NCBI RefSeq assembly: GCF_000468495.1
Contig: NC_022444.1
Coordinates: forward strand, 2,085,737-2,136,346
Source: Megalodesulfovibrio gigas DSM 1382 = ATCC 19364
GTDB taxonomy: Bacteria > Desulfobacterota > Desulfovibrionia > Desulfovibrionales > Desulfovibrionaceae
Direction: 5' to 3'
Length of the DNA stretch: 50,610 bases
Position numbers and translations under genes: made by a program
Shown here: positions 4,067-34,625 of the stretch, piece by piece
How the letters are laid out: the number at the start of each line of letters is the position of its first letter
How positions within the stretch are numbered: position 1 is the stretch's first letter
The notes under the pieces: generated by a model
What the model was told of the DNA's origin: nothing
Databases searched by the model: none
Seen by the model: only the letters and a program-made list of their open reading frames with translations

Positions 4067-4384
4067 ATGCATATTGCACTCGTTTTCACCCTCGCGGCCG
4101 CCTCCGGCTGGGAGTTCTGGCCCTTCGATGCCATCTACCCCTCAAACTTCTGGCCATTTTTGGCCAAGATTGGCTTTGTGGCCCTCATTTTCGGGGGGGT
4201 GGTGCTGTATCTGCGCAAACTGTTTGGCCCTGGCGGGCGGCTTCGCCCCGAGGGACTGGAGACAATCCAGGAAGCCCGGGCCCGGGAGGCACGCGAGCGC
4301 CAGGCCGTGGTGGACCAGGCGCAGGACGGCAGCCAGCCCGAGGGGCAGGAACAGGCCCGGGCCGCGGATACCCCGGAGCGTTAG
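4067..4384 (+). CDS. Small membrane protein, unknown function
   Basis: The 105-residue product starts with a hydrophobic stretch (HIALVFTLAAASG), has a tryptophan/phenylalanine-rich segment (WEFWPFDAIYPSNFWPF), and then a clear membrane helix (KIGFVALIFGGVVLYLRKLF, about residues 33-52). A charged, glutamate/arginine/glutamine-rich cytoplasmic tail follows. The ATG at 4067 has no good Shine-Dalgarno sequence, so the start is uncertain. The stop lies one base before the start of the HD-domain gene, so the two are probably co-transcribed. I do not recognise the family. Confidence 0.6.
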   Translation: MHIALVFTLAAASGWEFWPFDAIYPSNFWPFLAKIGFVALIFGGVVLYLRKLFGPGGRLRPEGLETIQEARAREARERQAVVDQAQDGSQPEGQEQARAADTPER

Positions 4385-20250: not shown

Positions 20251-21312
20251 CTACTTCACGCGATGGATGACAGCCTTCTGCTTCGGGCCCGGGAGCGCCG
20301 GTTTCTTGGCAATGGCCTGGGCCAGTTCACCATGCAGGAGGTGGCGATAGTGCTTCAGCGTTGTCTGAACCGTCGAATGCCCCAACAGCTTGGAGACCAA
20401 TGCCACGTCTGCCCCTTCCTTGATCATCACAGAGGCGAACAGGTGCCGGATGTCGTACATGCGAACAGGGTAGGGGATGCCGGCCCGTTCCACGGTGGAG
20501 GTCAGGCTGCGGCGAAATTTCTTCACGGGCTTGCCCTGGTATTCGATGACATGGGTGCACCTCGACCGCTGGCGCATGACCAGCAGCCGGGCGCGGAAGT
20601 CTTCCGTGATGGGCATCACCCTGTCGGCGCCTTCTGTCTTCGTGCCTGGGACGTGGATGGTCAGCCCGACAAAATCCACGTGCTCCCACCTGAGGGCCAG
20701 CAGCTCGGATTCCCCCGGGCGTGCGCCCAGTTCCCACATGACTTCCAGCGCCCACGCGAGGTGCTCCGGGGCATGCTCCTTGATGCGGGCCAGGTCTTCA
20801 AGCGTGAGCTGCAGGGGGCGCCGGTCCTCGCGGGCCTTCTTCCAGTGCGCCAGCGGTGATTTGCCGGTCAGCTCCTGCATGATCCCAAAGCGGAAGATGG
20901 CCTGAAGGTAGCTCAGATAGCGGTTGATGGTGGCGGGGCTGCGTCCTGGCCACGCGGCATTGACCAGGGCCAGCACGTCCGCATAGGCAAGGTCGTCCAC
21001 GGGCCGCGTGGCAAGGCGGGGCAACACCACACCGTTGAGCAGTTGCCCCAACTCCTTGCGCCAGCGCTCGCTTTTCCCCTGGCTCTTGGCGTGGTCCAGG
21101 TAAAGCTGGGCCAGCTCATCCAGGTGCATCCGTCCGCGGCGCTGGGGCTTGAGCGCGCCCTTGGCCTTGAGCAGCCGGATTTCCGCATCGCGCACCTTGG
21201 CACGCGTGCGCCCGGCCTCGCCCACGCCCGTGTACTCCTTCTCGGGGCTCTTCTGCCCGGGCAGGTAATACTGGACGAACCAGACGCCTTTCTTGGTTTG
21301 GTAGATGGGCAT
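20251..21312 (-). CDS. int: Tyrosine-family site-specific integrase
   Basis: The 353-residue protein (from MPIYQTKKG) inserts and excises the island at tRNA-Pro. It has an N-terminal arm-binding region, a SAM-like core-binding domain (about residues 63-160) and the catalytic domain with R198 (ARPGES), K225, R289-H290, H312 (LLGHS) and Y322 (KHYRH). The first position of the HxxRH box is tyrosine (YDIRH), a tolerated variant. Its 3' end faces the att site 130 bases away. The start is uncertain: ATG at 21324 is also possible, and neither has an ideal binding site. Confidence 0.95.
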   Translation of the reverse strand: MPIYQTKKGVWFVQYYLPGQKSPEKEYTGVGEAGRTRAKVRDAEIRLLKAKGALKPQRRGRMHLDELAQLYLDHAKSQGKSERWRKELGQLLNGVVLPRLATRPVDDLAYADVLALVNAAWPGRSPATINRYLSYLQAIFRFGIMQELTGKSPLAHWKKAREDRRPLQLTLEDLARIKEHAPEHLAWALEVMWELGARPGESELLALRWEHVDFVGLTIHVPGTKTEGADRVMPITEDFRARLLVMRQRSRCTHVIEYQGKPVKKFRRSLTSTVERAGIPYPVRMYDIRHLFASVMIKEGADVALVSKLLGHSTVQTTLKHYRHLLHGELAQAIAKKPALPGPKQKAVIHRVK

Positions 21313-21471
21313 AGGGATGAGCATACTCCAGGTGGAACGAGTGGACAATGAGAATGCGGGCCGTGGGGGGTGCCTGCCCTGCCTGGGGATTGTCTGTATT
21401 GGGGATTGCGGTTTGTTGCGGCTTCTGCCATTTCCTCTGAAACGGGAACCAGCAGTAGGTGAGGGATGTCG

Positions 21472-24315
21472 ATGGGGAACCAGCTCGAAGCCAAGTGCCC
21501 AGCCTCAATCTGGCGCAAGGATGTCACGGGCGACTTGAAAGTCGTGCTCAAGCATGTGGTGAAGGGGGCATTCAACATTGCCCGCCTGGATCCTGAAAAC
21601 ATTCTCACCCAGGGCACGGAAGCGCTCAAAGATTTCGGCCTGAAGGATTCGGCCGGGGAGTGCCTGCTCCAGTTTCTCCTTTCCGCCGCAACCATGGCGG
21701 CGCAGAAGTTGCTATTTGATACCCCTCGTCTGCAACATACTCCCCATGAAGCCCGTAGCGACCTGGCCACTGCCATGGCCGAAGCCATTGCCAAGGAGGC
21801 GGAACAACAGACCCTTGCAGTGGACCAGGCATTTCTCGAAACCCCGCGGGAGCATCTGCCATTCAGCGCGGTGCATACCGTCTTGCAGCCTTGGCTACAT
21901 GATCGTCTGGGGGACAAACTGGCCGCGGAGTGGACGGTCACGCGCTTTGCCGTCACCTTCGAAGCCATGTGGTTTGCTGTCTGTGCGAAGGATCTGGAGC
22001 GGTACACGACCATTCTCAAGGGCGTCGGGGTTTCAGAAAATGACATCGCCTCCAGGGCCACGCCGAACGCGCTTGCGTGGAACCGGTACAACGCCCTGCT
22101 GCAGCTGCAGCCCCGGCTGCCCATGATGGGTGAAGCCTTTGGGTTGGACGCCGTCTACATTTCGTTGCGGGGCTATTACGAGGGAAATGACACGGATAAC
22201 CAAAAACAGCAGCATGTGGTTTGGCTGGACAAATCCATTGATGCTTGGTTGGCATCTCCCAACATACGCGATGCCCTTCGCATCGTCTGCGGCGGTCCGG
22301 GAAGCGGCAAGTCCTCCTTCACCAAGATGCTGGCGGCGCGTCTGGCAACATCGTATGCCACCACTGGCTGGCGGGTGCTGTTTGTGCCATTGCATAGACT
22401 GCAGAACCTGGAACGATCTTTTGACAAGGCGCTCAGGGGCTATGTGCAGGCAGCCGAATTGCTGCCGTTCGACCCCTTGAACGAATCACGCGATCCCCTG
22501 CTGGTCATCCTGGACGGGCTTGATGAGCTGGCCATGGAAGATGGCACCCGTGGGGTCGAGGCTGCCAAGCTGTATGTTGCCAAGGTCATCAAGAGTTTGA
22601 AAGCATATAACTCACAGCGGGCACGGCTGAAGGTGTTGGTATCAGGTCGGGACCTGGTGGTTCAGGGTGCAACGCAGGAGCTGCGTCAGGCGAATATGGG
22701 GACGGACCAGTCCATGCTGCATGTCTTGCCATATGTAATCACCTCCAAAGATGTCCCCAACGCAGTGGATCCTGATGACCTGCGAGGCAAAGACCAGCGC
22801 ACGGTGTGGTGGGAGCACTACGGCAAGGCCACAGGTCGTGCGGCGACTGGCATGCCTGAGGAACTTGATACGGAAGGGCTCTTCGAAATGACCAGACGGC
22901 CATTGCTTGGCTATCTGGTCGCTCGCCTCCATGCCCGAACCCCCCTCAGCCAGGAGGAAAGCCGGGTCAGCATTTACGAAAAACTGCTTGCGGAAGTCCA
23001 CAGGCGGGATTGGGACGAGGGAGGGCCTGGGCATCCCTTGGACAAGGACTCTTTTTTCCAGGTGTTGGAGGAAGTTGCCGTGTGCGTCTGGCACAATGGC
23101 GCAGGCATCGCGACACTCAAGGACGTGGAAAAAAGGGTCTGCGGGAATTCCCAGTGCGTCAAGGCCTTGGAGACGATTGCCGATGGGGCAAAGAAACAGT
23201 CCCTTGGGACGATTTTGCTGGCATTCTATTTTCGGCACGGCCTTGGTGACACCTCCACCATCGAATTTACGCACAAGACCTTTTGGGAGTATTTGACAGC
23301 CAGAAGTATTGTGAGGACGTTCCGACAGATGCATGAAGAGAAAATGAACCTTGGTTCCGCAAAGTGGAACCCTCAAGCCTCCTTGGAAACGTGGATTGGG
23401 CTTTGCTGTGCCCAAAACATGGACCAAGATATGTATGATTATGTCAAGGAACTTGTCGCTGAGGAGCCTCAAAAAACACTGGTGAAGTGGCAAGAGCTGT
23501 GCGCTGCGCTCTTGAGCTATACGGTGGTTCATGGGATGCCCATGGGGGCTCGACCGGAGAGCCTATCTTTCAAGGCCCAGTGCCAGCAGGCTCGCAATGC
23601 AGAAATAGCGTTGCTGGCCATGCATTGTGCTTGTGCAACGAAGACGCAGCAGCGGACAGCGCTCCCATGGCCTGATGAACAAGGCTTCCACGCATGGTTG
23701 GCATGGCTTGAGCCAGTGTGGGGGACTGGTTTGACAGGTCGCCTACTGCAGGGATTGGTGCTTGAGGAACAGAACTTACAGGGGGAAAACCTCAACCATG
23801 CGGACCTCAGCCGTGCGGACCTCCGCGGTGCGGACCTCCGCCGTGCGACCCTCAGCGGTGCGGACCTCCGCGGTGCGGACCTCAACGGTGCGGCCCTCGG
23901 CCTTGCGGCCCTCGGCCTTGCGGACCTCGGCCTTGCGGCCCTCGGCTTTGCGGACCTCCGCGGTGCGGACCTCCGCCGTGCGAACTTCAACGGTGCGGAC
24001 CTCAGCGGTGCGGACCTCCGCGGTGCGGACCTCGGCCGTGCGGACCTCAGCGGTGCGGACCTCAGCGGTGCGGACCTCCGCCGTGCGACCCTCCACGATG
24101 CGATAGTTACTAATGCGTTGTTGAAGTACGCCAACGTCGAATGTGAGGCATTAGCCAAAGCATACTTTGACGACCCCGCCCTGAGTGAGGCCCTTGCCAT
24201 TGGCATAGACCTCGCTGAACTCCCCGAGTACCGCATCGGCAGCCCCACGTCGGAGCAGGTTGCGGCACTGGAAACGCTGGTGACGAAAACCAAGGCCGCC
24301 GAGGCCCAAAAATAA
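21472..24315 (+). CDS. NACHT-type NTPase with pentapeptide-repeat C-terminus
   Basis: The 947-residue protein has a helical N-terminal region (about 1-250, no match I know), a P-loop NTPase with Walker A GGPGSGKSS (K280) and Walker B LLVILDGLDELA (D348), a helical arm, and about 21 pentapeptide repeats of the ADLRG type (about 768-880) with a short helical cap. The DGLDE Walker B and the layout are those of NACHT/STAND proteins, many of which are anti-phage sensors; here the repeats take the place of the usual sensor repeats. The position beside the integrase fits island cargo. ATG at 21472 has AGGTGAG 8 bases upstream; ATG at 21466 is too close to it. Confidence 0.85.
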   Translation: MGNQLEAKCPASIWRKDVTGDLKVVLKHVVKGAFNIARLDPENILTQGTEALKDFGLKDSAGECLLQFLLSAATMAAQKLLFDTPRLQHTPHEARSDLATAMAEAIAKEAEQQTLAVDQAFLETPREHLPFSAVHTVLQPWLHDRLGDKLAAEWTVTRFAVTFEAMWFAVCAKDLERYTTILKGVGVSENDIASRATPNALAWNRYNALLQLQPRLPMMGEAFGLDAVYISLRGYYEGNDTDNQKQQHVVWLDKSIDAWLASPNIRDALRIVCGGPGSGKSSFTKMLAARLATSYATTGWRVLFVPLHRLQNLERSFDKALRGYVQAAELLPFDPLNESRDPLLVILDGLDELAMEDGTRGVEAAKLYVAKVIKSLKAYNSQRARLKVLVSGRDLVVQGATQELRQANMGTDQSMLHVLPYVITSKDVPNAVDPDDLRGKDQRTVWWEHYGKATGRAATGMPEELDTEGLFEMTRRPLLGYLVARLHARTPLSQEESRVSIYEKLLAEVHRRDWDEGGPGHPLDKDSFFQVLEEVAVCVWHNGAGIATLKDVEKRVCGNSQCVKALETIADGAKKQSLGTILLAFYFRHGLGDTSTIEFTHKTFWEYLTARSIVRTFRQMHEEKMNLGSAKWNPQASLETWIGLCCAQNMDQDMYDYVKELVAEEPQKTLVKWQELCAALLSYTVVHGMPMGARPESLSFKAQCQQARNAEIALLAMHCACATKTQQRTALPWPDEQGFHAWLAWLEPVWGTGLTGRLLQGLVLEEQNLQGENLNHADLSRADLRGADLRRATLSGADLRGADLNGAALGLAALGLADLGLAALGFADLRGADLRRANFNGADLSGADLRGADLGRADLSGADLSGADLRRATLHDAIVTNALLKYANVECEALAKAYFDDPALSEALAIGIDLAELPEYRIGSPTSEQVAALETLVTKTKAAEAQK
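23787..24095 (+). repeat. 15-bp tandem repeats coding for pentapeptides
   Basis: About 20 units related to GCGGACCTCCGCGGT are repeated in frame. They encode A-D/N-L-x-x pentapeptides, which form a square beta-helix. The units GGCCTTGCGGCCCTC (about 23898-23950) are a distinct sub-block. High DNA identity between units suggests recent expansion. Confidence 0.9.
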
Positions 24316-24319
24316 CCCC

Positions 24320-24547
24320 TCACACCTGCACCGGCTTCCATTCCATTGCCCTCGGCCGTCTGGCCGTGGGTGTGGGTTTGAAGTCTTCGGGGCGTTCCAT
24401 CCAGGCGTCCAGGTCGGCCAGGCGGTAGCGGGTTCGCTTGGGGCCGTAGCGGGGCAGGGGGTATTGCCGCAGCAGGGCGCCGAACTGGCTCTCGGAGTAG
24501 CCGCAATATTCGGCGGCCTCCTTGAGGTTGAGGTAGGGGCCCTGCAT
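24320..24547 (-). CDS. Excisionase/AlpA-like helix-turn-helix protein
   Basis: The 75-residue protein has the layout LNLKEAAEYCGYSESQFGALLRQ followed by PRYGPKRTRYRLADLDAWM, a MerR-like winged helix used by AlpA regulators and excisionases. Its likely jobs are control of the integrase or of the early operon. The ATG at 24547 overlaps the stop of the gene before it (ATGA). It is the last gene of the minus-strand early operon and converges with the NACHT gene, with 4 bases between the stops. Confidence 0.75.
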   Translation of the reverse strand: MQGPYLNLKEAAEYCGYSESQFGALLRQYPLPRYGPKRTRYRLADLDAWMERPEDFKPTPTARRPRAMEWKPVQV

Positions 24548-24816
24548 CAGCACCACCTGTCGGCCAGGGTCGTCGCACTGCCGGCAGCGCGGATGGCGTC
24601 CACGGCCTCGGTGCCGGCCGGGGTGAGCACCCAGCCGCAGCGGCCGCGGCAGGCCACACCCGCTACCAGTCCCCGGTCACTCAGGGCGTACAGGGTGCGC
24701 TCCACCTGACCGGGCGTGCGGCCCAGGGCGGCGGCGAGGGTTTCGGCCAGCGAGCACCCGGCCGCGTCGATCCCCGTCAGCACGTCTTCCTGGGGCGCGG
24801 AAAGGGGGCGGCTCAT
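24547..24816 (-). CDS. Small winged-helix-like protein
   Basis: The 89-residue product has a helix pattern compatible with a winged helix (LAETLAAALGRTPGQVERTL, then LYALSDRGLVAGVACRGRCG). It may be a regulator of the island. It overlaps its upstream neighbour by 4 bases and its downstream neighbour by 3. The DNA-binding role is inferred from pattern only. Confidence 0.6.
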   Translation of the reverse strand: MSRPLSAPQEDVLTGIDAAGCSLAETLAAALGRTPGQVERTLYALSDRGLVAGVACRGRCGWVLTPAGTEAVDAIRAAGSATTLADRWC

Positions 24817-25192: not shown

Positions 25193-26212
25193 CTAGGCGG
25201 TGGCTGTTTCGAGTGCGGCGGGATGGGCTTCGGCTTCTGCGGCTTCGGGGGCGTCCAGGTCTTCCATGGGCAGGAGGAAGCCCAGCTCCCGGGCGAGGGC
25301 TTCGGGCAGGGCGAGGCGGATTTCATCGCCCGGTTCCAGGGCCTGCAGGTCGCTGAAGACGAGGGCCTGTTCCTTGGCGATTTCGGCCTGGACGCCTTGG
25401 GCGGCGTCGTAGACGTAGAGGGTGCCGTCGGCCTCGTCGTCAAACTCCAGGGCAAAAAGCCGCCATCCGGGCGGGATGCCAGGGCCTTTCGAAGGCGCCG
25501 GGATGGCTGGCGGTGCGGGCGGGGCGTCGTCGTCCTTCATGCCCCCTGCCGGCTGGGGGATGCGACCGTTTTCCGGGATGGGCTTGCACTGCAGGGGGAA
25601 CTGGCGTTCCTCTTCCGTGAGGGGCCGGCGCTTGATGACTTCACGCGTCTCAATCTCCAGGAACTGCTTCTGGTTCAGGTCGAAGTTCCGGACCTCATAG
25701 CAGCGCAGGGTGCGCATTTCCTTGCCGCGCCTGATGCGGTGGGCCAGGGTGGTGGAGTCCTTTTCCACCACCTTGATGCGGCTGTTGAAGTGGTCCACAT
25801 GGCTCTTCTTCTCGGCCTCCAGGTCTTCGATGTGGACCACCAGCTTGGCCAGCTCCTGGCCCATGGCCTCCAGCTCGGCGCGGGTGAAGATGTGCTCCAC
25901 TTCCACGTCGGTGGTGCCTTCGAAGTGCAGGGTGTGGGGGCCGGCGTGGGGCTGGGGGTCATCTTCCCCGTCGCCGTCCGCGTCATGGGCTTCGCTGGCG
26001 TCGGCCTGTCTCGCCTGTCCCGCCTGTCCCGCCTGTCCCGCCTGTCCCGCCTGTCCCGCGTGTTCCGCGTGTTCCGCGTGTTCCGCGTCGGCCAGGGGCT
26101 CCAGCTCGGGGAAGGCCGGGGTTTCCTCGGCCTGGGCAACGTCCTGGGGATCATCCCAATACCCGACCGGGAAGCCGTCTTCGTCCAGCTCGCCTTCGGT
26201 CCAGCGGATCAC
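25193..26212 (-). CDS. Phage-type hypothetical protein with low-complexity repeat
   Basis: The 339-residue protein has an acidic N-terminus, a run of EHA and GQA triplets (about residues 44-70), a coiled-coil centre (ELAKLVVHIEDLEAEKKSHV, about 118-137) and a region TLRCYEVRNFDLNQKQFLEI seen in phage proteins of unknown role. The C-terminal part is acidic and alanine-rich. The ATG overlaps the stop of the gene before it by 4 bases (ATGA). A GGGGCC-GCGA-GGCCCC hairpin lies in the 143-base gap before the next gene (25166-25181). Confidence 0.7.
   Translation of the reverse strand: MIRWTEGELDEDGFPVGYWDDPQDVAQAEETPAFPELEPLADAEHAEHAEHAGQAGQAGQAGQAGQARQADASEAHDADGDGEDDPQPHAGPHTLHFEGTTDVEVEHIFTRAELEAMGQELAKLVVHIEDLEAEKKSHVDHFNSRIKVVEKDSTTLAHRIRRGKEMRTLRCYEVRNFDLNQKQFLEIETREVIKRRPLTEEERQFPLQCKPIPENGRIPQPAGGMKDDDAPPAPPAIPAPSKGPGIPPGWRLFALEFDDEADGTLYVYDAAQGVQAEIAKEQALVFSDLQALEPGDEIRLALPEALARELGFLLPMEDLDAPEAAEAEAHPAALETATA
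26004..26084. repeat. Nine-bp tandem repeat, nine units
   Basis: The units are one GCCTGTCTC, five GCCTGTCCC and three GCGTGTTCC in a row. They keep the frame of the overlapping gene and encode (EHA)3(GQA)5RQA. Such repeats change length easily by slippage. Confidence 0.95.
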
Positions 26213-26802
26213 ATGTCTCTGGTGGTGATGAAGAGGCCCTCCAGGTGCGTTGCAGGCTGGAGGCGCGCGTCATCATGGGCTGGGGCCGGATTGCCCGTAT
26301 CCTCCCAGGCCGGGCCGTCCAGGGAGTGAACCACGGGGGGCGGCAGGGCTTCGGCCTGCAAAGACACGTCCGCTGCCTCCAGCTGCAGGGCGTGCTCGGT
26401 CAGCGCCGGAAGGCCAGGGTCAGCCACATGCGCAGCTGCATCCACTGCAGCCACAGCCAGCGGCGCAGGCGCATCCTGAGGAGCTTCCAGAGCGGGGGCA
26501 TGGTGTTCGGCGGAGGCGGCAAGGGCATGGTCGGGTGTCTCCTGCAGCAAGGGTTCGGGGGTGTCGGTGCCGAGGGTGAAGCCGGCGAAGACGGCCAGGT
26601 CCTGGGGGATGGTCAGCAGGGCCCGGCTGTTGGGCGGCAGGGTCTGCAGCACCTCCAGGGGCGGGTTGATGGCCTCGATGTCTTCGAAGTCGATGACCGT
26701 GGGCATGTCGGCGGGAGCCTCGACAGGGCGGGCCAGGATATTGTGTTCCGTCACTTCGGATACGAGCACAGCGACACGAACAGCAGCGGTAGCGGCAGAC
26801 AT
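26209..26802 (-). CDS. Hypothetical protein of the early operon
   Basis: The 197-residue product has a compact N-terminal part (VAVLVSEVTEHNILARPVEA, then PPNSRALLTIPQDLAVFAGF) and a long alanine/proline-rich tail likely to be disordered. I do not recognise it. It overlaps the exonuclease gene before it and the next gene by 4 bases each, so it is part of the same translation-coupled operon. Confidence 0.65.
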   Translation of the reverse strand: MSAATAAVRVAVLVSEVTEHNILARPVEAPADMPTVIDFEDIEAINPPLEVLQTLPPNSRALLTIPQDLAVFAGFTLGTDTPEPLLQETPDHALAASAEHHAPALEAPQDAPAPLAVAAVDAAAHVADPGLPALTEHALQLEAADVSLQAEALPPPVVHSLDGPAWEDTGNPAPAHDDARLQPATHLEGLFITTRDM

Positions 26803-27578
26803 CACAGCACCTCCTCCGCTTCGGGGGTATGTTCGGGTTCCAGCATCTGCCGCACCCTGGGGGAGACCGGCTTCAGGCGGTTGTGCACGGCCCGGGTCAG
26901 GGCCACATCGTGGGCGCAGTAGTCGGCCAGTTCCTGCCGGCGGCCCTCCTTCCACATGCCCCAGACTTCGGAGCCGTGGGAGGTCTTGACGGGCAGGCCG
27001 AAGAAGGCGGCCAGGTCGTCCAATTTGACGAAGTCCTTCCACGCGCCGCCGCGGGCCATCTCCATGGTATCGTCGATGTTGCTCTTGTAGCGGTCGGCGT
27101 GCAGGTGTTCCGGCAGCCAGTAAAGGCCGTACTTCCAGGCGCGCAGCAGCAGGCGCGGGGCGTCGAAGCTGGCGAAGTTGTGGCCCACCCAGATGATCTT
27201 GGGATCCTCGAAGCGGCCCATGGCCTGCAGGTCCCGGACAAAGGCGGTCAGCACGGCGCGTTCGTCGATGCGGGGGTTGTCCGCCGGCGTCGGGGGTGGG
27301 GCGACCACGGTCTTGACCGGCCCGTCGTTGACCGCCCAGCCGATGCACACGATCTGGGCCTGGGCCAGATGCAGGGCCTGCTTGGCCCATTCGTCGTCCT
27401 TGCCGGCTTCCAGTTCGGCGCGCTTGGATTCGATGTATTCCTTAATGGCCTCGGGCTTTTTGTGGGTCTTGGGGACCTTGATGTTGTCCAGGTCCAGGAC
27501 CGGCGGGATGGGGCCGGGAATGGTTTCAATGTCCACGGTGACGTAGTGCTTGATGGTGGATCGATACAGCTCGGGCAT
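26802..27578 (-). CDS. DEDDy-type 3'-5' exonuclease
   Basis: The 258-residue protein resembles the PolB-related predicted exonucleases of phages. The acidic residues are D16 and E18 (VDIET), D139 (GHNFASFDAP) and D224 in Y220-x3-D224 (YCAHD), which makes it the DEDDy form. It would remove nucleotides from DNA 3' ends. The ATG overlaps the TAA of the upstream gene (TAATG). Next to a possible annealing protein, it could act in a recombination pair, but this pairing is inferred from context. Confidence 0.85.
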   Translation of the reverse strand: MPELYRSTIKHYVTVDIETIPGPIPPVLDLDNIKVPKTHKKPEAIKEYIESKRAELEAGKDDEWAKQALHLAQAQIVCIGWAVNDGPVKTVVAPPPTPADNPRIDERAVLTAFVRDLQAMGRFEDPKIIWVGHNFASFDAPRLLLRAWKYGLYWLPEHLHADRYKSNIDDTMEMARGGAWKDFVKLDDLAAFFGLPVKTSHGSEVWGMWKEGRRQELADYCAHDVALTRAVHNRLKPVSPRVRQMLEPEHTPEAEEVL

Positions 27579-28729
27579 TACGCGGCCTCCTCGGCGTGGT
27601 GGGTGTGTTCCTGGTGCGTGTTGGGCGGCGGGATGTATTCGGGGTCTCCGGCGTCTCCGGGCTCTGGGGTGCGTTTGGCCTCGGCGGCCTGGAGCCTGGC
27701 GCGGGCCTGGGAAAAGTAGCGGCAGATGGCCGAAGTGTCGGGATGGCCCTGGATGGAGTGACCATGCCGCTTCCACAGGGCCAGGATGTCCGATTCGGTG
27801 CGGCAGGCGTCGATGTCGTCGTAGATGGTGGCCAGGGGATCGGCCGTGGAATTGGCCGCGGGCTCGACCTGCCGGGCTTCCTGCCGGGCCTCCTGGCGAG
27901 GAGACGGCTGCCGATCCTGCCGGCGCTGGCTGCCCCTGGAGGCGTTGCCGCCCGCGGGGGCGCTATGGGGCTGGCGGGCCGCGCCCTGACGCGCGGGAGG
28001 CTGGGGATCGTCGTAGGCCCCGTGGCCCCCGCCCATGGCCTCGGGGTCTTCGTCCAGGTCCTGGGCGAACATGTCGCTGGCCGCGGTGGCCGTGATCACG
28101 GCGTCCACCAGGGAGCGCTTCTTGGCCATCTTGAGGACGGTGTTCCAGACGTCGGCCGGGTCCGGGTTTTCCACGCGGCCCACCTGCTGGCCGGTGATAA
28201 GCGGGTCCTTGTCCTGGAACTTGGCCCCACAGCCGCCCTTGTTTTTGAAACAGACCCAGCCGCCGCCGTACTCTTCCCTTCCCTTGATGATGGCCGCGGC
28301 GCCGCACTTGGGGCATTGCCGCTCGCCCTTGCGCCAGCGGTACTTGCTTTCCATGGTGGAGCAGGTGCCCAGGCCCTGGCCGATGAACTCGCCCGCGGGC
28401 GAGGCCAGGGTGGTGACGATCTGGTATTCCCGGTGCCCGCCGCCCAGGTCCCGTTCCTGGATCTGGAAACTGGGGCTGAATCGGAACAGCAGGTTCAGGG
28501 CTTCGGCGCCGGCCTTGAGCAGGACCATGCGCTGCTTCTTGGACCCGTCGCGGCCTTCGAAGATGCTGTCGTAATGTTCGCCCTTGCGCATCACCTGGCC
28601 CATGGCTTCCTGGATGACGCGCTTTTGGGCGACAATGGCCTCGGCCGAGGCCGGGGCGTAGACGGCAGGCATGGGCACGGCGTCGTTGCGCACTGCCAAG
28701 TCTGTACGAGATTCGGCAGGCGTGGTCAT
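27578..28729 (-). CDS. Phage-type DNA-binding protein with zinc ribbon, possible annealing protein
   Basis: The 383-residue protein has an N-terminal alpha/beta region (VMRKGEHYDSIFEGRDGSKK, VLLKAGAEALNLLFRF), a zinc-ribbon-like insert C139-x2-C142...C160-x6-C167, and the block VWNTVLKMAKKRSLVDAVIT. That block and the domain order resemble phage single-strand annealing or replication proteins. The C-terminal third is polar and repetitive (PSPRQEARQEARQVEP). It sits directly upstream of a DEDDy exonuclease gene. The annealing role is an inference; the zinc site and phage origin are better supported. Confidence 0.65.
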   Translation of the reverse strand: MTTPAESRTDLAVRNDAVPMPAVYAPASAEAIVAQKRVIQEAMGQVMRKGEHYDSIFEGRDGSKKQRMVLLKAGAEALNLLFRFSPSFQIQERDLGGGHREYQIVTTLASPAGEFIGQGLGTCSTMESKYRWRKGERQCPKCGAAAIIKGREEYGGGWVCFKNKGGCGAKFQDKDPLITGQQVGRVENPDPADVWNTVLKMAKKRSLVDAVITATAASDMFAQDLDEDPEAMGGGHGAYDDPQPPARQGAARQPHSAPAGGNASRGSQRRQDRQPSPRQEARQEARQVEPAANSTADPLATIYDDIDACRTESDILALWKRHGHSIQGHPDTSAICRYFSQARARLQAAEAKRTPEPGDAGDPEYIPPPNTHQEHTHHAEEAA

Positions 28730-28905
28730 GGCATGATCCCCTTGTGTTTGAGGCGTTCTTCCAGGGAAAAACAGGGCGGCAGGCCCAGGCGCTTGTCCAT
28801 GGCGGCAATGTCCCGGGTGAATTTACGATCCGCCGCGGTGAAGGCGTGCAGGGAGATGCAGACGGCGGCCAGGAGGAGGCAGATGGCGAAGACCAGTTCA
28901 GGCAT
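28726..28905 (-). CDS. Small membrane protein, first gene of the early operon
   Basis: This 59-codon frame starts at ATG 28905 behind a strong binding site (AAGGAGAGGTGG) and ends with a TGA that overlaps the next ATG (ATGA). The N-terminus is one membrane helix (LVFAICLLLAAVCISLHAF), followed by a charged segment. The family is unknown. The binding site and coupling make it a real gene despite its size. Its promoter region holds two copies of the island operator. Confidence 0.75.
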   Translation of the reverse strand: MPELVFAICLLLAAVCISLHAFTAADRKFTRDIAAMDKRLGLPPCFSLEERLKHKGIMP

Positions 28906-28983
28906 GGACCACCTCTCCTTGCATTCCGTCCGTTGCGGCGAACCCGCCGCCGCCTCGGCAGTACGTCCGCCGGTGAAAATGTA

Positions 28984-28997
28984 TTGTCACAAGACAA
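28984..28997. promoter_or_regulatory. CI/Cro-type operator, copy 1
   Basis: TTGTC-ACAA-GACAA is a perfect inverted repeat of 5-base half sites. It lies 79 bases upstream of the early operon start and 32 bases (centre to centre, three helical turns) from copy 2. Confidence 0.75.
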
Positions 28998-29015
28998 AGA
29001 CAAAGGCAAGTAAAA

Positions 29016-29029
29016 TTGTCTCATGACAA
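29016..29029. promoter_or_regulatory. CI/Cro-type operator, copy 2
   Basis: TTGTC-TCAT-GACAA, extended by A and T to 16 bases, is the same motif as copy 1 and as the copy between the repressor and Cro-like genes. Binding by the repressor encoded at 31472-32194 is inferred. Confidence 0.75.
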
Positions 29030-29030
29030 T

Positions 29031-29198
29031 AAAAGCGCAAAAAAAACCGGCACGGCCGGGCATCGTACGTTGGGGGCAAAGCTTCCCTCGCGGTGGCCCC
29101 CAAAAATCCCGCCGCTGGGGGGGAGGGGAAGAGAGGTGGCGACCGAGTGCGGGCTGCCCAGTGTCGGCAATGAAGCGCTTTGGCCTTGCCATGGTGCA
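29031..29198. other. Gene-free stretch with a hairpin
   Basis: TTGGGGGC (29070) and GCCCCCAA (29096) can form an 8-bp stem with an 18-base loop. No T-tract follows. No gene is seen between the operators and the DUF4160 gene. Confidence 0.4.
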
Positions 29199-29447
29199 AT
29201 GATTGCACTATGGCAATTCATGGTCACGGCGCACCGCATTGGCAATATTCGGATTGATGTCCGCGGCAGGGAGCATAACCCGCCGCATGTGCATATTGAT
29301 GGCCCGAATGGGCCAGTGCGGGTGTTCCTGAATGACATGACGGTACTTGGGTCGCGCAAGGCTATCCGGGCCAGCGGCGAGGCCTTGGCCTGGGTTGAGG
29401 CTAATCGTCAGGCGCTGTTGCAACTTTGGGAGGAACTGAACCCATGA
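29199..29447 (+). CDS. DUF4160-family protein
   Basis: The 82-residue protein shows the family signature REHNPPHVHI and the tail ALAWVEANRQALLQLWEELN. DUF4160 genes usually sit next to DUF2442 genes, as here, and the pair is often listed as a toxin-antitoxin-like module without proven activity. The start could also be the ATG at 29220. Its stop overlaps the next start (ATGA). Confidence 0.8.
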   Translation: MIALWQFMVTAHRIGNIRIDVRGREHNPPHVHIDGPNGPVRVFLNDMTVLGSRKAIRASGEALAWVEANRQALLQLWEELNP

Positions 29448-29920
29448 AACGAATTGCCTATCCTGACACTGCCCACGCACGAATTGCCGAGGCGACCGCA
29501 GAAGGCGGCACGGTGCTGCTGGTTGTCTGGGAAAACGGCAGCGCCAGCCGCATCGATCTCGCCTCGTGGCTCGACGCCCACGCAGACTTGGCCGGGCTTC
29601 GCACCCCCGACACCTTCGCCCGCGTCCAGGTGGGCGAGTTCGGCGGGTTCGTTCATTGGGGCGAGGACGGCGAAGAGGAGCCGGCCATTGACGGGCTGCA
29701 TCTGTGGCTCATGGAGCAGGGACAGCGCGGGGTGCCCCTGACCCCTGATGCGCTGAGGCGCTGGCGTGAATCAAGAGGGTTGACGTTGGGCTAGGCTGCC
29801 GAGGTCACGGGCGTCAGCCGACGGCAATGGGCATATTACGAGGCCGGACAGACGATAATTCCGTATGGCCTGGGCCTGGTTTGCAAGGGGTATGACGCGC
29901 TACGGGACGAGGCGGCGTGA
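29444..29920 (+). pseudogene. DUF2442-HTH protein interrupted by an amber codon
   Basis: The first 116 codons encode a DUF2442-like domain (VVWENGSASRIDLASWL, TPDTFARVQVGEFGGFVHW) and the start of a helix-turn-helix (PDALRRWRESRGLTLG). A TAG at 29792 stops it. In the same frame the sequence continues as AAEVTGVSRRQWAYYEAGQT and ends at TGA 29918, which completes an XRE-type domain. A CAG-to-TAG change would explain this (LTLGQAAEVTGVS is the expected pattern). The shortened protein would lack DNA binding. A sequencing error cannot be excluded. Confidence 0.75.
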
Positions 29921-30033
29921 GGGGGAGGAACCATTTTCCCGGCGCCGGGGAAATGGTAGGGCAAAAGAAAACCCCGCCGGGGCGGGAAAGAGAGGATATT
30001 GCCAGAGCGAGGGCAAGCGGTTATTTCATAGTC

Positions 30034-30591
30034 ATGAGCAGCCACATTGCCACTTTTGATCCATCCATTGCCCCCCGCCTTTCGATGATTGCGGCGTGCC
30101 TGGATCGCCTTCGTGTGGAGTGGGGCTTCTTTTGGTTTATTGTTCCGGAAACGTGGCGCTGCGCCAGGGATTTACGAGCGACGCGTGACAAAATGGCCAG
30201 CCATTTGGACATGCTCAAAGGGTCCATCGCCATGTGCGAGCGCTGCCGCAATCCGCACGGTTGCGAGTTGCGTAACGACGTGCTGGGGCTGGCGCGAGGC
30301 GGGCTCGACATCATGGACCGCATGACCATCATGCTTCGAGACGCTACGCCTTTTCGTTACATCTACAAGTCATGCCTTGCCCTCTCCTGGCAATGGCAAG
30401 ACGCCTATGACGCGGCCTACCTCCTCCAGCACCCTGAATTGCGCGCACGCATCGACGCGGCGATTGCAGACGTGAAAGACCGGGAAGACGCCGCGGACAT
30501 CGCTGCGGTCATGCTGGCGCAAGACCGGATCGAACGCGGCGAAGACACGTTCTTCACCCCTGACGAATTCTCCAAGTCCCTGGGCCTGTGA
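30034..30591 (+). CDS. Antitoxin-like protein with a cysteine cluster
   Basis: The 185-residue protein is mostly helical and has a C-x2-C-x5-C group (MCERCRNPHGCELR, about residues 69-77). Its C-terminus, ERGEDTFFTPDEFSKSLGL, looks like the toxin-binding tail of RelB-type antitoxins. The next gene is a RelE-like remnant that overlaps its stop by 4 bases (GTGA), which supports the antitoxin reading. The N-terminal part is not a known antitoxin domain to me, so the assignment is partial. Confidence 0.55.
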   Translation: MSSHIATFDPSIAPRLSMIAACLDRLRVEWGFFWFIVPETWRCARDLRATRDKMASHLDMLKGSIAMCERCRNPHGCELRNDVLGLARGGLDIMDRMTIMLRDATPFRYIYKSCLALSWQWQDAYDAAYLLQHPELRARIDAAIADVKDREDAADIAAVMLAQDRIERGEDTFFTPDEFSKSLGL

Positions 30592-30872
30592 CGCGCTATT
30601 CCCTGGTCATCCAGAGCAGCGCGACGCATGCTTTGAAGCGGCTGCCCGTTGACGCCAGGCAGGCTTTCCGCGACGCCATCCTCTCCCTTGCCGATAATCC
30701 ATTTCTTCCCACCAGCAAGCCCATGGCGGGCGCGAAGAACCGCCACCGGCTCAGGCTCCCCTGCCAAGCATGGGCCGGGAGGGCGATGAAAAACATGGCG
30801 AGGAAGAGGAAGCGGGGGCGCATGGGGCTACTGGACTATTCGTTTTCTTTTCTTGGGCGCTGCCGAGTCTAG
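30588..30872 (+). pseudogene. Truncated RelE/ParE-type toxin
   Basis: The first 57 codons match the RelE/ParE pattern (SLVIQSSATHALKRLPVDAR, ADNPFLPTSKPMAGAKNRHR). After NRHRLRL the expected strand with the motif YRVIY is missing and is replaced by unrelated sequence up to a stop at 30872. The toxin core is therefore incomplete and probably inactive. The GTG start overlaps the stop of the antitoxin-like gene. Confidence 0.7.
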
Positions 30873-31394
30873 AGAAACAAAAATAACAATCTTTTCTTTT
30901 ATTTCCATATCACCATCAACAACTGTTATATAAATCCCATTATCCCCACCCGGTAATGAGTGGTTTGACCAGCGCCGGTTGAAAGTTGCAAGCGCCGATG
31001 GGTATATTACCTTATCAAGAACACTATTTGCGAAGACAACATCATTTGGCTTGCTGTCGTTTTTCTTCAAATACATGATCCCGTCAAACATAAACGTTCC
31101 CTGTGTTTGCCCGCCATGTATGTAGTATGTCTTATCCCATAAAATCTCAATATCCCTGCTTGTTTTGTTTTGTATTTTTATTCTGAATGCATTTGCAGGA
31201 AGAAATTTTATATCTTGAACTGGCTCGATTGATGCAAAAAATATATTATTATCTGCCGTGTTGTTGCCTTCAAACTTGACTTGATATTCTTTTGGTGGCT
31301 GCTTTGCTTTCGGTTCATATGTCTGATGCGGAACACATCCCGGAGCAACAGCAAGAAAAGCAAATATACCCACCATAATTATCTGAATTTTCAT
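30828..31394 (-). CDS. AT-rich putative lipoprotein
   Basis: The 188-residue product starts with a signal peptide and the lipobox VAPGC (FAFLAVAPGC). The mature part is beta-rich (DIEILWDKTYYIHGGQTQG, GIYITVVDGDMEIKEKIVIF) and is not recognised. Base composition is clearly more AT-rich than the neighbours, which indicates recent acquisition. It lies between the RelE remnant and the repressor gene, the usual place for a lysogenic-conversion gene that is expressed from the integrated state. Confidence 0.7.
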   Translation of the reverse strand: MKIQIIMVGIFAFLAVAPGCVPHQTYEPKAKQPPKEYQVKFEGNNTADNNIFFASIEPVQDIKFLPANAFRIKIQNKTSRDIEILWDKTYYIHGGQTQGTFMFDGIMYLKKNDSKPNDVVFANSVLDKVIYPSALATFNRRWSNHSLPGGDNGIYITVVDGDMEIKEKIVIFVSLDSAAPKKRKRIVQ

Positions 31395-31471
31395 GCCTCT
31401 TACTCCGTTTATTTTGATTCTACCTATGTCGTTCCATATGCTTCGATTGTAGCGGGGTCCATGTTTTTACC

Positions 31472-32194
31472 TCACAGCATTTGCAGGTCACGACCAAGCC
31501 ACTTCACATGGCCGATCACTTCAAAATCTACAGACTCATCGTGTGGATTTATTTCTATATCCCTATATAATTGCTTGTCATGGTTGTCGCTCCTCAAAAT
31601 AATAAGCCCCTTTTCACGGAAAAGGCGCTTTACCATAAGTTGCCCATCATGTCGCACAGCGTAAATATCCCCGCTTGTTGTGAACAGCCTTTCATCTTGG
31701 CGAGTCGAGACCAACAACATGTCGCCATTCGTTATTGTCGGTTCCATTGAATGCCCACGGGCATCCATCAACACGATAGAATCCAGATTCCCCTTTTTTA
31801 CCAACCAGTCTTTCCTGAATGCGTACAAATCTTCATATGAAGAGTCAAACTCAAGGCCACCATCTCCCCCGACAGGACGAGCAAAAACTTTTGGGACAAA
31901 CTCAAAATTTTCTTTAATTTCTTTGCCTTCGCTTAGTATCTCTACGGTGTCTATCCCTAATTTGTTCATATAGCGAAACAAGTCGATTGCTGCTGTTTTT
32001 TGCCCGCCACGCTCACCGTCGATCCACCGCTTGATCGTTGCTGGATTCACCCCCCCGAGCCTTTTCCCAATTGACGCAAGGGTCTCGCCGTCATCTCTGA
32101 GCTTTTTGAGCGCATCGATAACAGCAGACCATGCCAACAAAAAAACCTTGTCCGCGTTCATAGTTGCCGCTGTTAGCAGTTTAGCATTTGTCAT
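31472..32194 (-). CDS. CI-like repressor (HTH plus S24 peptidase-type domain)
   Basis: The 240-residue protein has an N-terminal helix-turn-helix (ETLASIGKRLGGVNPATIKR, residues 38-56) and a LexA/S24 C-terminal domain with catalytic S149 (GHSMEP) and K189 (LMVKRL). Such repressors keep the element silent and are inactivated on DNA damage by self-cleavage; whether this one has a cleavable linker is unclear. It diverges from the Cro-like gene across an operator at 32223. The start at 32194 is a choice; ATG 32161 would still keep the HTH. Confidence 0.88.
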   Translation of the reverse strand: MTNAKLLTAATMNADKVFLLAWSAVIDALKKLRDDGETLASIGKRLGGVNPATIKRWIDGERGGQKTAAIDLFRYMNKLGIDTVEILSEGKEIKENFEFVPKVFARPVGGDGGLEFDSSYEDLYAFRKDWLVKKGNLDSIVLMDARGHSMEPTITNGDMLLVSTRQDERLFTTSGDIYAVRHDGQLMVKRLFREKGLIILRSDNHDKQLYRDIEINPHDESVDFEVIGHVKWLGRDLQML

Positions 32195-32210
32195 GCGACC
32201 ATAATTCCTG

Positions 32211-32239
32211 TTGACTTTTGTTTTGTCTCGCGACAAAAT
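32211..32239 (+). promoter_or_regulatory. Promoter of the Cro-like gene
   Basis: TTGACT is followed after 17 bases by CAAAAT. Transcription would start at or next to the ATG at 32246, so the mRNA may be leaderless. The operator at 32223-32236 fills the spacer, where bound repressor would block RNA polymerase. Confidence 0.5.
32223..32236. promoter_or_regulatory. CI/Cro-type operator, copy 3
   Basis: TTGTC-TCGC-GACAA is embedded in a longer palindrome, TTTTGTCTCGCGACAAAA (32221-32238). It lies between the divergent repressor and Cro-like genes and repeats the half sites found at 28984 and 29016. Confidence 0.8.
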
Positions 32240-32245
32240 CAAGCT

Positions 32246-32491
32246 ATGAACGCACTCGAAAAGTTTCGACGGGAACGAGGCCTCAATTATGAGGCCCTCG
32301 CGTCAATGGCGGGTACTGACACCGGGAATACCCACAAGCATTGCCAAGGAAAAAAGCCAATCGGGGCAGAATACGTACTCCGCTACAATGCACGGCTAGG
32401 AATCCCGTTGGAAGAGCTGCGCCCGGACCTCTATGGCGACAAGCGCCCCTCTCTGCCCCCCTCTCCCCCCACCCAGGAGGCCCGGCCATGA
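32246..32491 (+). CDS. Cro-like helix-turn-helix protein
   Basis: The 81-residue protein has an XRE-like helix-turn-helix (RRERGLNYEALASMAGTDTG, about residues 9-28) and a proline-rich tail. It faces the CI-like repressor across a shared operator, which is the usual place of Cro. There is no Shine-Dalgarno sequence before the ATG. Its stop overlaps the next start (ATGA). Confidence 0.75.
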   Translation: MNALEKFRRERGLNYEALASMAGTDTGNTHKHCQGKKPIGAEYVLRYNARLGIPLEELRPDLYGDKRPSLPPSPPTQEARP

Positions 32492-33617: not shown

Positions 33618-34310
33618 ATGGCCCTCGACTTCGCCGCCATCAACGCCGCCGCCCTGGCCGCCTGCCCGGAGATTCTCAAGGGCTGGCTGCCTGGAGGGGA
33701 GAAGCAGGGGAAAAACTATGTCTGCGGCGATCTTGCCGGCAGCCCTGGCCATTCCCTGTCCGTGCACCTGGAAAAGGGATTCTGGAAGGATTTCGGCACA
33801 GGCGAGGGCGGCGGAGACCTGATTTCCCTCTATGCTGCCATCTACCAGCTGTCCCAGGGTGCGGCGGCCAAGGCCCTGGCCCGGGAGCTGGGGCAGGGCG
33901 GGTCCCGCGGGGCAGGGCGGACCCCGCGGCCCGTGGCGACGGGATCAGTCACAGGGGCCTCCACAGGCGAGGCTGCGGCGCAGGTGTGCGTGCTCTCCCT
34001 GGTGCCGGACGCCGCTCCCAGGCCGCCGGACAGTCATCCCCGACATGGCCGGTGCAGCATGGCCTGGGAGTACCGGGACCAGCTGGGCCGGCTGCTGGGG
34101 CGGGTGCTGCGGTTCGACACGGCCCAGGGCAAGCAGATTGTACCCCAGGTGTTTTGCGAGGTGGAGAACCGGGCTCCGCGCTGGCAGTGGAAGAGCTGGC
34201 CGGCCCCGCGCCCCCTCTAAGGCCTGGACCGCCTGCCTGACACCAAGGCCGTGCTCCTGGTGGAGGGGGAAAAGGCGGCGGACGCGGCCCAGCGGCTGCA
34301 TGCCCTCCAC
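33618..34310 (+). pseudogene. Broken phage primase-type gene
   Basis: The open part (200 codons) has the primase-like start PEILKGWLPGGEKQGKNYVC and EKGFWKDFGTGEGGGDLISL, typical of phage DNA primases with an N-terminal zinc-finger-like or DUF3987 partner region. A TAA at 34218 stops it in RPL-stop-GLDRL. The same frame then continues with KAVLLVEGEKAADAAQRL, the TOPRIM-like block, so a TAC/TAT-to-TAA change is likely. Homology ends near 34305, where the IS3-type relic begins to take over. The whole helicase part is missing. Confidence 0.8.
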
Positions 34311-34412
34311 ACCAACCCATACCTCCGTAGCAAGAGAGCGTCCGCCATGAGCAAAGACAAGCGTATCCTGGTGTACCCCATGGCGTCCATCAGCGCCGCC
34401 ATCGCCGCTGAT

Positions 34413-34560
34413 CTGCCGGCCTTCTTCGGACCACTGATTACTTGAGAGTGGCGCTCCGGTTTTGGCCTGCCGCGGCTGTTTCCTTGCAGGCCGCTGGGGG
34501 CATGTTGCCCAGACTGGAGTGCGGGCGCACGGTGTTGTAGTGCCGCCGCCACCTCTCCGG
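34413..34560 (-). mobile_element. IS3-type relic, transposase C-terminus and element end
   Basis: On the minus strand the fragment encodes ERWRRHYNTVRPHSSLGN and continues to a TAA at 34438, the C-terminus of an IS3-family (rve) transposase. The element end after the stop, with ACTGATTACTTGAGAGT on the plus strand, also occurs inverted at 43897-43913. Similarity between the two copies extends from about 34413 to 34550. The rest of the transposase is absent. Confidence 0.85.
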
Positions 34561-34625
34561 ATACAACGAAGAAGAAGAGAACAACACAAAACCCTAAAAA
34601 AATGACAATTGAATATTGAATAATA
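34561..34625. other. Start of AT-rich segment
   Basis: Base composition changes sharply from GC-rich to AT-rich at about 34560, exactly at the edge of the IS3-type relic. No gene lies in this stretch. Confidence 0.6.

Follow-up and report, generated by a model that had tools for sequence, protein, structure and literature searches.

The sequence of a prophage region of Megalodesulfovibrio gigas argues for a lysis-lysogeny switch built on the logic of phage lambda, in which a CI-like repressor would act on two promoters and a Cro-like protein probably on both as well; we put the probability of this reading at roughly 0.87. The window (the whole stretch of 50,610 nucleotides that was analysed) had been predicted to share one operator between two control regions about 3 kb apart, and this is supported by the operator pairs of a syntenic prophage, L140, and by homologous switches that repeat their own operator downstream of cI. 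These comparisons, made at the level of sequence, are the deciding support.

The motif TTGTC-N4-GACAA has exactly three perfect matches in the window, at 28984, 29016 and 32223, as the original prediction had it, compared with 0.03 expected; none of 100 dinucleotide shuffles reaches three. A fourth site, overlooked at first, lies at 32188–32201 (TTGTCATGCGACCA), with one mismatch and 35 bp from the site at cro, so that both control regions carry an operator pair. The members are 32 bp apart in one pair (28984/29016) and 35 bp apart in the other (32188/32223). Taken as 16-bp palindromes, the operators at the cI/cro region are O1 (TTTGTCTCGCGACAAA, 32222–32237), in the −35/−10 spacer of cro, and O2 (ATGGTCGCATGACAAA on the minus strand, 32187–32202), which is 35 bp from O1, holds the probable cI start codon and has the same inner 14 bp in L140. 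Those at the early promoter are an inner operator (TTTGTCTTGTGACAAT on the minus strand, 28983–28998) and an outer operator (ATTGTCATGAGACAAT, 29015–29030) 32 bp upstream of it. A whole-genome scan, proposed with the original prediction in case the motif should prove common genome-wide, found only five sites in 3.8 Mb and none for a reversed control pattern. The two sites outside the prophage, one inside an arsM-like coding sequence and one at the 5′ end of a citrate-synthase coding sequence, correspond to about the chance rate.

In each pair, the inner operator lies within a predicted promoter, immediately behind the −35 hexamer. At cro, the predicted promoter TTGACT-N17-CAAAAT (32211–32239, plus strand) has a position that is conserved in homologues; its −35 (32211–32216) and −10 (32234–32239) hexamers flank the site at 32223–32236 across a 17-bp spacer, where the third copy had been placed. 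At the early promoter, the predicted −35 hexamer TTGCCT (29004–29009, minus strand) stands 5 bp before the 16-bp inner operator. The early pair was at first assigned to the transcribed leader of the operon, and this did not hold: it overlaps the predicted promoter, and 77 bp separate the inner site from the first open reading frame, which begins at 28905. The −10 at cro, CAAAAT, is poor and that of the early promoter is poorly matched; a promoter scan of the window did not report the early promoter, which has no good −10. These weak predicted −10 elements are the main loose end of the circuit reading. In most homologues the predicted start of cro mRNA lies at about the ATG, and no ribosome-binding sequence was seen at the cro start of these switches. 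The cro mRNA may therefore be leaderless, possibly also in the window, whose predicted start is likewise close to the ATG of cro.

The repressor gene (31472–32194, minus strand) encodes an N-terminal helix-turn-helix (HTH) domain and a C-terminal Peptidase_S24 domain (PF00717, 1.6e-18, residues 103–219; phrog_4 transcriptional repressor, 2.6e-35), the architecture of LexA/CI-type S24 repressors. HTH_23 is weak in the window CI (0.0018), yet of 16 N-terminal domains in the alignment 14 match it. Most homologues with the CI DNA-binding domain are 147–190 residues long and have a short C-terminal part that, read by eye, is unlike S24, so that induction must differ there. The divergent cro-like gene (32246–32491, plus strand) encodes an HTH protein of 81 residues, whose family is present in 37 of 288 host-family genomes (E≤1e-8); of 395 sampled genomes from the phylum, only those of the host family gave strong matches. 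Searches of 50,697 phage records gave no convincing relative of the CI N-terminal domain or of Cro, queried as its L140 orthologue, and looking CI up directly in collections of genomes and viruses gave no match. Single-sequence structure models (mean pLDDT 53 and 41) were too poor for use.

The early, pL-like operon (25193–28905, minus strand) comprises genes for a small protein (28726–28905), a protein matching a PHROG of unknown function (27578–28729; phrog_10048, 7.8e-37) and a PolB-type 3′-5′ exonuclease (26802–27569; PF10108, 1e-13), and an uncharacterised gene (25193–26212), all on the minus strand. An exonuclease and a possible annealing protein had been predicted here; the former is confirmed by its PF10108 match, and 27578–28729, matching phrog_10048 only, gives no sign of the latter. 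An excisionase-like HTH_17 gene (24320–24556; PF12728, 1.4e-8; phrog_66 excisionase, 5.6e-7) follows on the same strand, and farther on lies a tyrosine integrase gene (20251–21348, minus strand; phrog_1, 1.8e-50) at the end of the element that adjoins the core genome, represented by PutA and GcvP to its left. Between these two genes, a NACHT-type ATPase with pentapeptide repeats (21466–24315, plus strand) is a candidate defence cargo.

At the other end, genes for a tape-measure protein, a head-tail connector and tail proteins lie on the minus strand beyond the right edge of the window. The rightward operon is broken near 34.2 kb, where transposase remnants and a restriction-modification cluster intervene; within 33618–34600, a frame located where a replication gene would be expected (33618–34220) stops beside the transposase remnants. 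The prophage is thus probably damaged, and its circuit may no longer yield phage. The segment 37956–47027, with two C5-cytosine methylase genes, a BbrUII-like/GHKL ATPase protein and a NOV_C protein, is an island of restriction or defence genes that lies either within the prophage or next to it.

The 288 host-family genomes were searched with the repressor N-terminal domain and with the early protein, and the two were found close together in three of them (G182, G072 and G078). The G182 locus, L140, is a syntenic prophage in another genus, with orthologues of cro, cI, the early protein (52% identity) and the exonuclease in the order of the window. It has an operator pair at cI/cro (6796 and 6830; GTTGCCACGAGACAAC and GTGGTCGCATGACAAC) and another at the early promoter (9496 and 9530; GTTGTCGCAAGGCAAC and GTTGCCATGTGGCAAC), each with a separation of 34 bp. 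The window and L140 share, without a difference, the 14-mer TGGTCGCATGACAA, in which the probable cI start codon lies.

Wider comparisons were anchored on cI, which yielded 34 homologous switches from the same bacterial family. In most of these a 16-bp palindrome lies 5–6 bp downstream of a TTGAC-like hexamer and 7–10 bp before the cro start, and about 20 align as TTGAC-N5/6-GTTnnn-N4-nnnAAC-N7..10-ATG of cro. The half-sites differ by system: TTTGTC in the window, and elsewhere GTTGTC/GCC, GTTGGC, GTTAAC/ACC, GTTCTC, GTTACG, GTTGTG, GTTACA, GTTACT and others. The palindromes were chosen partly by their symmetry, which alone is therefore no evidence; the test is recurrence, scored in 24 loci by searching the rest of each locus for the half-sites of that system, one mismatch being allowed, the expectation being taken from scans of each locus with operators of unrelated type. 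Own operators recur 24 times against 1.8 expected, in 18 of the 24 loci, which are related and so do not count independently. Nearly all of the recurring operators lie downstream of cI, and the genes behind the second site are those of recombination, excisionase or integrase. TTGAC stands 5–6 bp upstream of the operator, at the position of the window's TTGCCT, in 12 of 19 second sites, several of which directly precede excisionase/integrase genes. Two operators at each region are found in the window and in L140, L149, L151, L154, L157, L159 and L167, and one at each in L164, L177, L181 and L182; the outer operator is missing in some homologues. In a held-out set of eight further loci found through Cro only, a script places the palindrome 8–9 bp ahead of the cro start in six, and inspection by eye does so in all eight; the operator recurs in four, always on the cI side. 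One 5.6-kb contig without recognised cI or cro (L158, G108:C77) carries the arrangement O2-TTGACT-O1 at 4169–4216.

Within a system the recognition helices of CI and Cro are alike, as in GRDTVSR/GRDTISR (L156), DRATVNR/DRATVWK (L177), SKAAVSR/SKPGVFR (L149) and QRGSVQN/KRGVVHN (L153). This likeness is suggestive of CI and Cro reading one operator, as in lambda. The first residue of the CI helix is Asn, Asp or Gly where base 4 of the half-site is G, and Ser, Ala or Thr where it is A. This holds in all 19 scorable systems, but the tree contains only two independent changes, and the covariation is thus only a hint.

The same comparisons bear on whether the operators could be primarily Cro sites, with CI acting at Pcro only or elsewhere. 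The Cro recognition helices track the operator too, and the Cro of phage PY54 binds a 16-bp palindrome (PMC4488713). Cro tracking has an exception, however, in L182, where Asp occurs with GTTACT, whereas the CI correspondence has none, even if it reflects two changes; moreover, the operators recur in L165, L168 and L172, where no adjoining cro frame of at least 50 residues was found. We consider a primary role as Cro sites unlikely. Still less likely is control by the 28983–29030 pair of the divergent rightward DUF4160/DUF2442 genes (29.0–29.8 kb) in place of the leftward early operon. The DUF4160 frame does lie just to the right of the pair, but the second operator of L140 and of other homologues, with its upstream TTGAC, reads into a recombination or xis/int operon on the corresponding strand. 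The DUF4160 and DUF2442 genes themselves, in tandem at 29016–29794 (plus strand), may form a two-gene module.

Short palindromes are also typical of host regulators, and a LexA-, Fur- or redox-type protein might use these sites. Of the five genomic sites, however, three are in the prophage and two in coding sequence, and within one host family homologous prophages differ in their operator letters yet preserve the layout, a pattern that does not allow a shared host regulator; we regard this explanation as highly improbable.

The reading that we favour, a lambda-like circuit, would operate as follows. A dimer of the CI-like repressor would bind the 16-bp palindrome WTTGTC-N4-GACAAW, which is paired at Pcro/cI (32187–32237) and at the early promoter (28983–29030). 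At each region the inner operator would fill the −35/−10 spacer, so that bound repressor excludes RNA polymerase. The outer operator, 32–35 bp or about three helical turns away, would suit side-by-side binding in which neighbouring dimers touch, possibly with cooperativity. In a lysogen, cro would be silenced together with the rightward replication operon, as would the leftward recombination/excisionase operon, with the integrase farther on if xis and int are co-transcribed. Self-cleavage of the S24 domain would release both promoters at once, giving induction. Cro, with a helix that resembles that of CI system by system, would probably compete for CI's sites.

In lambda, one type of operator occurs at two control regions that flank cI; CI has an S24-type C-terminal domain and Cro is a small HTH protein. 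A rightward operon carries cro and the replication genes, a leftward operon under pL carries the recombination, xis and int genes, and each region has three closely spaced operators. The window resembles lambda OR/OL in its divergent cI and cro with operators in between and, together with L140, in the operator at a second early promoter across cI, before recombination/xis/int genes, an arrangement that recurs in 18 of the 24 homologues. It differs in having two operators per region, 32–35 bp apart (one in some homologues), in the inner operator that fills the promoter spacer at both regions, and in CI and Cro N-terminal sequences without a convincing relative in isolated phages. The switch would work like that of lambda but is not filed as a lambdoid switch.

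The immB switch of PY54, N15 and phiKO2 has a 16-bp palindromic operator in which a few base pairs set specificity; the cI and cro mRNAs of PY54 are leaderless, and its Cro has only one site, at a distance of up to 40 bp from the cro promoter (PMC4488713). The window shares the 16-bp palindrome and a predicted leaderless cro mRNA, but unlike PY54 has operators inside promoters at two loci. The c repressors of D3112 and DMS3 are among the best database matches of full-length CI (about 30% identity) and have an S24-type domain, whereas the N-terminal domain alone gives no phage match. A D3112/Mu-type c repressor was rejected: upstream of DMS3 c there are CTATAG-type repeats but no TTGAC-N5/6-palindrome like those of the window, hence no matching site, and the window element has a tyrosine integrase. 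The repressor regions of DMS3, LPM4 and Vibrio PE001 were likewise dismissed as relatives, the layout being absent. Two papers on Desulfovibrio prophages, when searched, contained no mention of a repressor or an operator.

When viral contigs were scanned for the paired motif, 60 matched, most of them from a high-GC group that has repeat arrays as well as GTTGTCAnnTGACAAC pairs; no link to the window repressor was made, and the lead was dropped. In many contigs of the high-GC group (L039–L097) the spacing of the GTTGTCAnnTGACAAC pair is exactly 29 bp, a conserved arrangement that resembles an operator pair. In G016 (L035, G016:C5 1501–1554), three repeats of the TTGTC type, one of them imperfect, lie in an ssb leader and were set aside.

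Circuits of this type are known; new are the repressor/Cro family and a layout that stays fixed while the half-site varies and the C-terminal domain is swapped. The sequences point to a lambda-like circuit whose repressor family has yet to be found in isolated phages. We see about an even chance that, taken jointly, the homologues represent a clade-wide switch module in mobile elements of the host family: the DNA-binding head would be shared, whereas the C-terminal domain would be S24 in some repressors and another in others; a single promoter layout, its operator in the spacer at both loci, would serve prophages and perhaps conjugative elements; and the inner half-site triplet, diverging along with the recognition helices of CI and Cro, would define the immunity group. 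In L155 and L156 the homologous switches adjoin genes that, by eye, resemble VirB-type conjugation genes, and the module may thus also occur in conjugative elements. For the phages of this bacterial family the finding provides a testable lysis-lysogeny circuit. Some two dozen related systems keep the geometry and change the operator letters, and so form a ready set for the study of how CI and Cro specificity change together; the related switches also predict which prophages share immunity.
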